From Cupriavidus necator (GTDB lineage Bacteria; Pseudomonadota; Gammaproteobacteria; Burkholderiales; Burkholderiaceae), in the NCBI RefSeq assembly GCF_013141915.1, contig NZ_SROX01000008.1, positions 124,001 to 188,000 on the forward strand: a DNA stretch of 64,000 bases, in the 5' to 3' direction. A program made the position numbers and the translations under genes. Positions 35,875 through 38,407 of this stretch are shown in pieces. Within the stretch, counting starts at the first letter, position 1. The number at the start of each line of letters is the position of its first letter. The notes below the pieces were generated by a model, which ran no database searches, was not told where the DNA came from, and saw nothing but the letters and a program-made list of their open reading frames with translations.

Positions 35875-36933
35875 ATGGCTTATCAAGTAACCGTCATGCC
35901 CAGCGGCCACAAGTTTGAAGTGGCCACGGACGAAACCATCCTCGGCGCGGCCCTGCGCCACAGCATCGGGCTGCCCTACGGCTGCAAGAACGGCGCCTGC
36001 GGTTCGTGCAAGGGCCGCGTGCTCGAAGGCACCATCGTGCAGGGCGACCATGCCCCTTCGGCCCTGACTGCTCAGGAAAAGACCGAGGGCCGCGCGCTGT
36101 TCTGCTGCGCCAACGCCGCCTCGGACATCACCATCGAATGCCGCGAAGTCCACGGCGCGGGCGACATCCCGATCAAGAAGGTGCCGTGCCGCGTGACCTC
36201 GCTCGAGCGCCTGGCCGACGACGTGATCGCGATCAAGCTGCAGTTGCCCGCCACCGAGCGCATGCAATACCTGGCCGGCCAGTACGTGGAATTCCTGCTG
36301 CGCGACGGCAAGCGCCGCAGCTATTCGATCGCCACGCCGCCGCACGAGGACGGCCCGATCGAACTGCATATCCGCCATATGCCCGGCGGCGCGTTTACCG
36401 ATTACGTGTTCGGCGCCAAGGAAGGCCAGCCGGCCATGAAGGAACGCGACATCCTGCGCTTCGAAGGCCCGCTGGGCAGCTTCTTCCTGCGCGAGGAGTC
36501 CGACGCCCCGATCATCCTGCTGGCCTCCGGCACCGGCTTCGCCCCCATCAAGGCCATCGTCGAGCACGCCGCCTACACCGGCATCACGCGCCCGATGACG
36601 CTGTACTGGGGCGGTCGCCGGCCCAAGGACCTGTACATGCACGCGCTCGCCGAGCAGTGGGCGCGCGACCTGCCCAACTTCAAGTACGTGCCGGTGGTCT
36701 CCGACGCGCTGCCCGAAGACAACTGGCAGGGCCGCACCGGCTTCGTCCACCAGGCCGTGATTGCAGATCACCCCGACCTGTCTGGCCACGAGGTCTACGC
36801 CTGCGGTGCGCCGGTGATGATCAACGCCGCGCGCGGCGACTTCACGCGCCAGTGCCAGCTGCATGAAGACGCGTTTTTCGCCGACTCGTTCACCTCCGAG
36901 GCCGACATGCACGCGGCCACGCCCGCGGCCTGA
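35875..36933 (+). CDS. Ferredoxin-type flavin reductase (annotated family: CDP-6-deoxy-glucoseen reductase)
   Basis: The 352-residue protein joins an N-terminal plant-type [2Fe-2S] ferredoxin (YGCKNGACGSCKGRV, with the fourth cysteine in LFCCANA) to a ferredoxin-NADP reductase module (FAD motif RRSYSIATPP; NAD motif LLASGTGFAPI). Relatives are named AscD or RfbI, the NADH-dependent reductase of 3,6-dideoxysugar synthesis. No sugar genes are nearby, so it more likely supplies electrons to some other enzyme. The ATG at 35875 has no clear Shine-Dalgarno sequence. Confidence 0.82.
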   Translation: MAYQVTVMPSGHKFEVATDETILGAALRHSIGLPYGCKNGACGSCKGRVLEGTIVQGDHAPSALTAQEKTEGRALFCCANAASDITIECREVHGAGDIPIKKVPCRVTSLERLADDVIAIKLQLPATERMQYLAGQYVEFLLRDGKRRSYSIATPPHEDGPIELHIRHMPGGAFTDYVFGAKEGQPAMKERDILRFEGPLGSFFLREESDAPIILLASGTGFAPIKAIVEHAAYTGITRPMTLYWGGRRPKDLYMHALAEQWARDLPNFKYVPVVSDALPEDNWQGRTGFVHQAVIADHPDLSGHEVYACGAPVMINAARGDFTRQCQLHEDAFFADSFTSEADMHAATPAA

Positions 36934-36991
36934 GGGCCGTCGGCGCGCCGTTCCGCCAGCGCAACAGTGCCCGGGCCCGCCAAAATTCGTT

Positions 36992-37020
36992 TTGACACCC
37001 GGGCCCATGCGCCTTATATT
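36992..37020 (+). promoter_or_regulatory. Consensus sigma-70 promoter upstream of the argD-like gene
   Basis: TTGACA (36992-36997) and TATATT (37015-37020) are separated by 17 bases. This is the best promoter match in the window. Transcription should begin near 37027-37028, at or next to the ATG of the 22-codon leader frame. Confidence 0.8.
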
Positions 37021-37027
37021 TGCCCGC

Positions 37028-37096
37028 ATGCACACGACCTTCAACCGACGCCGCAGCTTCCGTACGTCGCTCCCCGCTGGGGTGCCGCGCGGCTGA
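37028..37096 (+). CDS. Candidate arginine-rich leader peptide
   Basis: A 22-codon frame reads MHTTFNRRRSFRTSLPAGVP followed by Arg-Gly and TGA. Five of the 22 residues are Arg, three of them consecutive (codons CGA, CGC, CGC at 37046-37054), and the third codon positions are mostly G or C, as in real genes here. The ATG lies about where transcription should start, so the mRNA would be leaderless. The terminator at 37124-37153 and an argD-like gene follow, which suggests attenuation by arginine supply. That it is translated is inference. Confidence 0.45.
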   Translation: MHTTFNRRRSFRTSLPAGVPRG

Positions 37097-37123
37097 CCGT
37101 CGACTGCGTCTGTTCATGTCAAC

Positions 37124-37153
37124 GAGCCACGGGCAACCCCCGTGGCTTTTTGT
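37124..37153 (+). terminator. Terminator in the argD leader (putative attenuator)
   Basis: GAGCCACGGG and CCCGTGGCT form a strong stem followed by TTTTTGTTTTTG. It lies between the promoter and the aminotransferase gene on the same strand, so it must be bypassed for expression. The segment CCCGCTGG (37073-37080) can pair with CCACGGG (37127-37133) with one bulged base and would break the stem, giving a possible antiterminator. Confidence 0.7.
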
Positions 37154-37219
37154 TTTTGTTCTCGTTGCGTCTTTCGCGCCCGTCCGTCCATCGTTACACG
37201 CCGACCCCTGGAGTCCGCC

Positions 37220-38407
<1,188 letters not shown>

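Follow-up and report, generated by a model that had tools for sequence, protein, structure and literature searches.

A Candidate Leaderless Arginine Attenuator Upstream of argD in Cupriavidus and Other Burkholderiales

Introduction

How do bacteria of the order Burkholderiales sense arginine? ArgR governs arginine synthesis in many bacteria, and its C-terminal domain (PF02863) was found in none of 120 genomes of the order and in none of 31 relatives (the control was found in 8 of 14 genomes). The question becomes concrete at the argD locus of a 64-kb window of Cupriavidus necator DNA (the whole stretch analyzed here), in which a short reading frame with consecutive arginine codons and an intrinsic terminator precede the gene for acetylornithine transaminase. 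Given that no ArgR C-terminal domain was found in the 120 order genomes, a conserved attenuator in front of argD would offer a direct answer on arginine sensing. Leader-peptide attenuators of the trp, his, leu, phe and thr type are known in proteobacteria, and a first-pass annotation of the window had seen the same logic in this upstream region. We find that logic supported by a conserved frame, conserved Arg codons, the terminator, the position of argD and a lineage-specific pairing between two segments termed R2 and R3. Thus, we argue that the element is very probably a ribosome-mediated arginine attenuator of the trp/his type, with a leaderless leader ORF, that controls argD, where both ribosome stalling and the response to arginine are what we infer from the sequence comparisons presented below.

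The argD Locus and Its Upstream Region

The features considered in this work, in window coordinates, are as follows.

36992–37020, + strand: sigma-70 type promoter, TTGACA-17-TATATT (promoter scan, 11/12 matches), with the −35 hexamer TTGACA at 36992–36997, a 17 nt spacer and the −10 hexamer TATATT at 37015–37020
37026–37028, + strand: predicted transcription start, placed from the −10 and at most 2 nt from the ATG (leaderless)
37028–37096, + strand: leader ORF, MHTTFNRRRSFRTSLPAGVPRG and stop, 22 codons, ATG at 37028–37030 and stop codon at 37094–37096 (conserved frame)
37046–37054, + strand: Arg run CGA CGC CGC, codons 7–9, predicted stall site
37079–37094, + strand: R2, the predicted 5′ arm of the antiterminator (GGG, UGCC, CG, GGCU), pairing with 37125–37139
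37098–37102, + strand: CGTCG, which can pair with CGACG at 37046–37050 (competing R1:R2 hairpin, from single folds)
37124–37155, + strand: intrinsic terminator, stem 37124–37133/37139–37148 with a U-rich tail (terminator scan)
37125–37139, + strand: R3, the predicted 3′ arm of the antiterminator, and also the 5′ arm and loop of the terminator
37220–38407, + strand: argD, acetylornithine transaminase, preceded by a GGAG of its own at 37210–37213 (NF002985, PF00202)

The promoter, the ATG, the 22-codon frame, its Arg codons, the terminator and argD had all been proposed in the first-pass annotation, and each was recovered at the position first assigned to it. ArgD is identified by a match of 785 bits to NCBIfam NF002985 (cut-off 568) and by a match to the class-III aminotransferase family of Pfam (PF00202), and the co-directional gene upstream of it, which ends at 36933, encodes a 2Fe-2S/FAD/NAD reductase. 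In the window copy, the leader carries Arg at codons 7, 8, 9, 12 and 21. Scans of positions 36500–37700 returned one promoter site, with 11/12 matches (shuffle mean 0.0), and one terminator (shuffle mean 0.6). Across both strands of the 64-kb window, just three ATGs stand 6–8 nt behind a promoter-like site (defined for this count as at least 4/6 matches in each hexamer), and the argD leader alone among them continues into three successive CGN codons.

Folded alone, the window element gives a z-score of −2.2, with an equal or better fold in 6 of 200 shuffles, and the antiterminator segment alone folds no better than its shuffles (z = +0.4, window copy). As this segment by itself does not beat shuffled sequence, the case for an attenuator rests on conservation.

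We also considered, and rejected, a second clear copy in the same genome. A model search gave 11 matches at E values up to 5; of the five that were read, one is the element itself, one (L276) is the opposite strand of its terminator, one (L275) is a plain terminator, and two (L277 and L278) look like coding sequence, with the remaining six being weaker matches (E 0.8–4). Elsewhere in the window, there is probably a group II intron at about 45.8–48.3 kb, as indicated by minus-strand matches to Rfam RF00029 and RF02012 (45831–45907 and 48123–48272).

Conservation in Cupriavidus and Burkholderiaceae

Alignment across relatives, which the first-pass annotation had named as a check on its proposal, bears that proposal out: the frame, the Arg codons, the short distance from −10 to ATG, the terminator and the position of argD recur within Burkholderiaceae as well as in further families of the order. 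The DNA between 36967 and 37260 was matched in 35 of 36 genomes of the same genus (the single miss being a genome that is 54% complete), and the leader was present in all 35 matching loci when these were read. A related query of 221 bases found a match in 65/65 genomes of the Burkholderia-type genus, and all 20 of the loci fetched from these carry both leader and terminator.

When family loci were instead fetched by ArgD protein, leader and terminator were found together in 57 of 70, comprising 30/30 in Cupriavidus, 19/20 in a second set and 8/20 in a third set drawn mostly from genera not yet seen, such that fractions of this kind are not those of random samples. The other 13 loci consist of 12 without a terminator of the argD-leader type and one (L226) with an N at the place of the ATG. 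Finally, among the matches listed for a pattern that contains the Arg run, 90 of 119 have ArgD at most 1 kb downstream on the same strand, and among the remaining 29 are elements truncated where the stored sequence of the locus ends (L086, L150) as well as chance-looking ones in unrelated taxa, for example Streptomyces. The genera with the element before argD, again among the matches listed, include Cupriavidus, Ralstonia, Paraburkholderia, Burkholderia, Caballeronia, Pandoraea, Mycetohabitans and Trinickia. As the pattern itself contains the Arg run, the 119 loci (those among the matches listed) did not enter the counts of frames and codons, and were included in the structure counts (120 and 146 elements) and in the alignment.

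The Leader Frame and Its Arginine Codons

The frame test was performed on loci with ArgD downstream and a GCCACGG-type terminator, which were fetched by ArgD protein or DNA similarity and not by Arg pattern. In each locus, the promoter was located first, then the first ATG, and then CGACG, with no frame demanded. The best promoter site matches the consensus at 9–11 of 12 positions in 79 of the 91 distinct elements obtained, and at 7–8 of 12 positions in the other 12. The ATG lies 6–8 nt behind the −10 in all 90 distinct elements in which it can be read (7 nt in 73, 6 nt in 11 and 8 nt in 6; the 91st is L226), and this position of the −10 suggests that transcription starts at or next to the leader ATG. 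The first-pass annotation had called such a leader unusual. The short distance from −10 to ATG recurs across the family, and a leaderless leader is not without precedent, as the accessible text of PMC7298713 describes rnTrpL of Sinorhizobium meliloti as starting at the ATG of trpL.

The distance of CGACG from the A of the ATG is 18 nt in 40 elements, 24 nt in 37, 21 nt in 9, 27 nt in 2, and 9 and 30 nt in one each, and is thus always a multiple of 3. Over the first 20 codons after the ATG, Arg accounts for 26% of codons in frame, versus 12–13% in the other two frames. The leader peptides differ across the family (e.g., MHTTFNRRRSFRTSLPAGVPRG, MNQALHLRRRRTLLPPGSRAAVC and MNRIQSELRRRRSPLP). Inside Cupriavidus, the peptide end LPxGVPRG and close variants of it are well conserved; family-wide, the peptide after the Arg run, its length (15–32 codons) and its stop all vary, and the Arg run stays.

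The composition of the run was determined for 85 distinct elements that were not picked by Arg pattern. Counting six codons from the start of the run, there are four Arg codons in 67 elements and three in 18. The 282 run codons comprise 153 CGC, 86 CGA, 43 CGT and no CGG; the first run codon is CGA in 85/85, and the second is only ever CGC (50) or CGT (35). For orientation, CGG makes up 20 and CGA 2 of the 126 Arg codons in eight genes of the window, and whole leaders, with 482 Arg codons, contain 24 CGG and 9 AGG. In the subset fetched by the ArgD route only, CGA comes first in 49/49 and CGG is again absent from the runs. We note that CGA, CGU and CGC are decoded by one tRNA-Arg, and that CGA is decoded slowly. 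RNA pairing of CGACG is a possible further reason for the constancy of this motif.

Terminator and Antiterminator Pairing

In the window, R2 and R3 can pair through GGCU (37091–37094 with 37125–37128), CG (37088–37089 with 37130–37131), UGCC (37083–37086 with 37132–37135) and GGG (37079–37081 with 37137–37139). The antiterminator predicted in this way would be mutually exclusive with the terminator, and appears to be retained while the sequences of its arms change. In particular, the loop-side part of R2:R3 changes in step, with GGAUGCCG facing CGGCAUCC in L218, GGCC facing GGCC in L074, CCC facing GGG in L157 and AGCCG facing CGGCU in L143. In the four loci of family f24, the terminator arm starts with GGCCGC in three, with R2 reading GUGCGGCC or GUGUGGCC, and the fourth (L258) has GGCCACGAG and CUCGUGCGCC.

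A different antiterminator had initially been proposed, formed by 37073–37080 (CCCGCTGG) and CCACGGG at 37127–37133. This pairing is possible in the window, but the upstream segment varies among relatives (CCCGCTGG, CCCACCGG, CCCTTAGG), whereas 37079–37094 is kept together with its partner at 37125–37139, and we therefore reject the former as the conserved antiterminator. Separately from either pairing, many single folds, when inspected by eye, contain a small hairpin (CCC/GGG or UCC/GGA) at 37072–37082 in the window and at the equivalent position in relatives, located just upstream of R2 or reaching into its first bases. Its letters change, and it may be a pause or timing hairpin.

Of the 120 distinct R2:R3 pairs of the family set, 118 pair better than shuffled R2 does on average, and the cognate pair beats the non-cognate mean in 82/120 pairs of the family set and in 17/22 outside the family. 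To these we add a comparison of 40 lineages (18 hand-chosen family representatives and 22 from outside the family), in which the cognate pairs have a mean energy of −16.6 kcal mol–1 compared to −14.6 kcal mol–1 upon permutation, with 0 of 100,000 permutations as low when kinship is ignored, and with a negative R2:R3 interaction term in 30/40 lineages. Covarying stems, which the first-pass annotation had suggested looking for, are therefore supported in the case of R2:R3 but not in the case of the competing upstream R1:R2 hairpin. The latter is present in single folds and beats shuffled R2 in 28/40 lineages, but R1:R2 covariation is absent across the same 40 lineages, where 13,990 of 100,000 permutations are as strong. 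In both lineage tests and in the comparison of the 22 outside loci, L308 is counted from an isolated Arg codon further upstream, and the L293 leader may begin at an ATG ahead of that assigned to it.

All 65 aligned elements have an identical terminator stem (GCCACGG/CCGTGGC), partly since the selection filter demanded that stem; as only elements matching it were kept, its near-invariance is weaker than it looks. RNAalifold applied to the whole alignment returns the terminator alone (9 pairs), as insertions and deletions fragment R1 and R2.

Other Families of the Order

Among 300 genomes of the order, 39 argD matches were obtained outside the family at E 1e-100, with an Arg-rich leader and a terminator in 22, and argD without the element in 17. 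Both the leaders and their short distance to the −10 were judged by eye. By family, the element was found in 4/4 loci of f3, 6/6 of f5, 4/5 of f8, 1/1 of f15, 1/4 of f21, 4/4 of f24, 1/1 of f35 and 1/3 of f39, and leader and terminator were absent upstream of argD in f30 (0/3) and f4 (0/8), all 39 upstream regions having been read. The eight f4 loci (L281–L285, L290, L292 and L298) thus have argD without such a switch, which was either lost or never gained. The run starts with CGA in 18 of the 22 leaders, and L257 has CGG as the fourth codon of its run.

The f5 leaders (L304–L309), which lie upstream of argD, have GRGA in common and are rich in Ala codons in addition to those for Arg, such that more than arginine may be read. 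As they are Ala-rich, and as some carry just two adjacent Arg codons or scattered ones, specificity for Arg is less sure in this family. A model search of the order matched 96 of 300 genomes at E 0.05, with many of these matches covering the terminator end of the model only; of 19 model-matched loci that were read, argD follows in 7, a transporter in 2 (L254, L256), and no leader is visible in 10. At the two transporter loci, from family f15 (L254:1512–1610 and L256), a similar leaderless-looking leader (MNSQSLTLVRVRPVARLHKACRSSFRGRESQR in L254) and a terminator precede a gene other than argD, the product of which is of EamA/DMT type by the look of the protein and is possibly an amino-acid responsive exporter.

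Proposed Mechanism and Ribosome Geometry

In the mechanism that we propose, RNA polymerase would start at or beside the ATG, and the ribosome would load on the leaderless end of the RNA. When charged tRNA-Arg is short, the ribosome would stall on the CGA CGC CGC run, leaving R2 (37079–37094) free to pair with R3 (37125–37139), so that no terminator would form and argD would be transcribed. When arginine is plentiful, the ribosome would instead reach the stop codon (37094–37096) at the end of R2 and cover R2, allowing the terminator to form. The terminated product would be a leader RNA of about 121–128 nt, which in Burkholderia would correspond to Rfam BcKCsr7.

We examined the geometry of this mechanism using assumed ribosome footprint sizes, with the search for R2 beginning 4 nt past the edge of the stalled ribosome. 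With the first Arg codon placed in the A site of a stalled ribosome, R2 starts at least 13 nt past the assumed ribosome edge in 146/146 distinct elements. With the same kind of assumed footprint, a ribosome at the stop codon overlaps R2 by at least 50% in 78/146 elements (and fully in the window copy), and does not overlap it in 40/146. As R2 would be left uncovered in these 40 elements, re-forming of R1:R2 behind the ribosome must be assumed there.

A Published Small RNA

Of 20 related sources chosen for the comparison, 15 have a match to the Rfam family RF02884 (BcKCsr7) that covers the leader and reaches the gathering score. No such match was obtained in L084, which lacks the element, nor in L082, L113 (a Pandoraea) or the two Ralstonia-type loci L066 and L069. 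Against RF02884, the window copy reaches 26.7 bits, below the 59-bit cut-off; as 15/20 relatives do match, this copy looks homologous, while falling outside the family as drawn.

In the accessible part of the review PMC10987360, Bc_KC_sr7 is the same RNA as nc5U30, RIT34 and IG1_2967543, a 147 nt transcript at 2,967,641–2,967,787 of B. cenocepacia chromosome 1. There, its expression is noted in biofilms, with lower levels during C. elegans infection and higher levels upon exposure to organic peroxide, and no mechanism is given; the two latter responses are not predicted by the attenuator reading. Two Burkholderia-type loci, L077 and L076, have 146 and 153 nt, respectively, between the AUG and the end of the RF02884 model, which is compatible with a start at the AUG. 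None of the matches in the 65 genomes of the Burkholderia-type genus was located at the published start coordinate, which had been looked for there in strain J2315. In addition, the name nc5U30 would by its form point to a 5′UTR. The available main text of PMC5688073 (Sass 2017) reports 82 short 5′UTRs that arise from processing or attenuation, with carA among those named, and contains neither the string "nc5U" nor the terms "arginine", "argin" or "acetylornithine". Most simply, BcKCsr7 in Burkholderia would be the terminated argD leader.

Alternative Explanations

The catalogued RNA could also be read the other way around, with BcKCsr7 being the gene of a trans-acting sRNA that sits by chance before argD, and the ORF being incidental. 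The coverage of the element by RF02884 in 15 of the 20 chosen sources would fit such a gene, as would the listing of the B. cenocepacia RNA as an sRNA in the accessible part of PMC10987360. We nevertheless consider it very improbable, as the Arg codons remain in frame despite variable spacers, ArgD lies downstream of 90/119 pattern matches (among the matches listed), the R2:R3 pairing competes with the terminator in cis, and the second name, nc5U30, seems to denote a 5′UTR. The two roles are not exclusive, and a terminated leader could also act in trans. Alternatively, the terminator might serve to end the transcript of the upstream reductase gene, which ends at 36933 on the same strand, with the argD promoter located further down and the ORF present by chance. 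This is barely conceivable given the near-consensus promoter between the reductase gene and the terminator, as well as the conservation of the ORF frame, the Arg codons and R2:R3.

Two further explanations accept the conserved run but differ in what it is for. SpeFL and TnaC are leader peptides that sense a ligand in the ribosome, and the argD leader peptide might likewise sense arginine or ornithine inside the ribosome and arrest as a nascent chain, in keeping with the well-conserved LPxGVPRG-type peptide end within Cupriavidus. Across the family, however, it is the Arg run that is kept, with variable peptide sequence after it, variable peptide length (15–32 codons) and a variable stop, making arrest of this type very improbable. 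The run could, on the other hand, be kept for R1:R2 RNA pairing with translation being irrelevant, given that CGACG can pair with CGTCG downstream of R2 and that the first run codon is constant in 85 distinct elements. Taking into account that the frame is kept in 90/90 elements, that the second run codon is only CGC (50) or CGT (35), and that R1:R2 shows no covariation, we give this explanation only the slightest chance.

Implications and Comparison with Known Systems

If argD is controlled by ribosome-mediated attenuation as we propose, arginine would join the amino acids that are sensed by leader-peptide attenuation, and an Rfam sRNA family for which no mechanism is described would be explained as a cis-acting leader. 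Cupriavidus serves as a production host, and the element is a possible arginine-responsive switch for it. We also advance, as a speculation that is more doubtful than probable, that the argD attenuator is an old and still the main arginine sensor of the ArgR-less Burkholderiales, reading the charge of one tRNA-Arg (that for CGA, CGU and CGC) via a leaderless RNA, and that the terminated leader BcKCsr7 is a stable RNA, or encodes a peptide, acting in trans on other arginine or nitrogen genes.

The first-pass annotation had known of no arginine case of this kind in Burkholderiaceae. This stands insofar as we found no printed one, and no arginine attenuator or leader peptide before argD, in the open-access literature (none is described in the accessible parts of PMC8632094, PMC3110155 and PMC2965389), but the RNA itself had been catalogued, without a mechanism, as RF02884 BcKCsr7. 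The element would thus be an arginine-specific member of the leader-peptide attenuators that we have not found in print, and as such it is well supported by comparison.

Among known systems, BcKCsr7 appears to be the same RNA in Burkholderia relatives (147 nt as published, compared to 146 and 153 nt between the AUG and the end of the model), but is catalogued as an sRNA without a mechanism, with the window copy under its cut-off. The Salmonella speF leader has conformations that respond to arginine, as described in the accessible part of PMC6386406. It controls polyamine synthesis (ornithine decarboxylase) and not argD. A parallel for the leaderless arrangement is trpL/rnTrpL of S. meliloti, where, according to the available text of PMC7298713, the leader ORF is leaderless, the RNA starts at the ATG and the terminated RNA is known as an sRNA; rnTrpL and the peptide peTrpL differ from our case in that Trp and not Arg is involved, in belonging to another bacterial class, and in acting in trans. 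With the trp, his, leu, phe and thr attenuators, finally, the argD element shares a short ORF carrying codons for the amino acid of the pathway, mutually exclusive antiterminator and terminator structures, and a position before a biosynthetic gene, whereas it differs from them in that it would read arginine and in that it looks leaderless.
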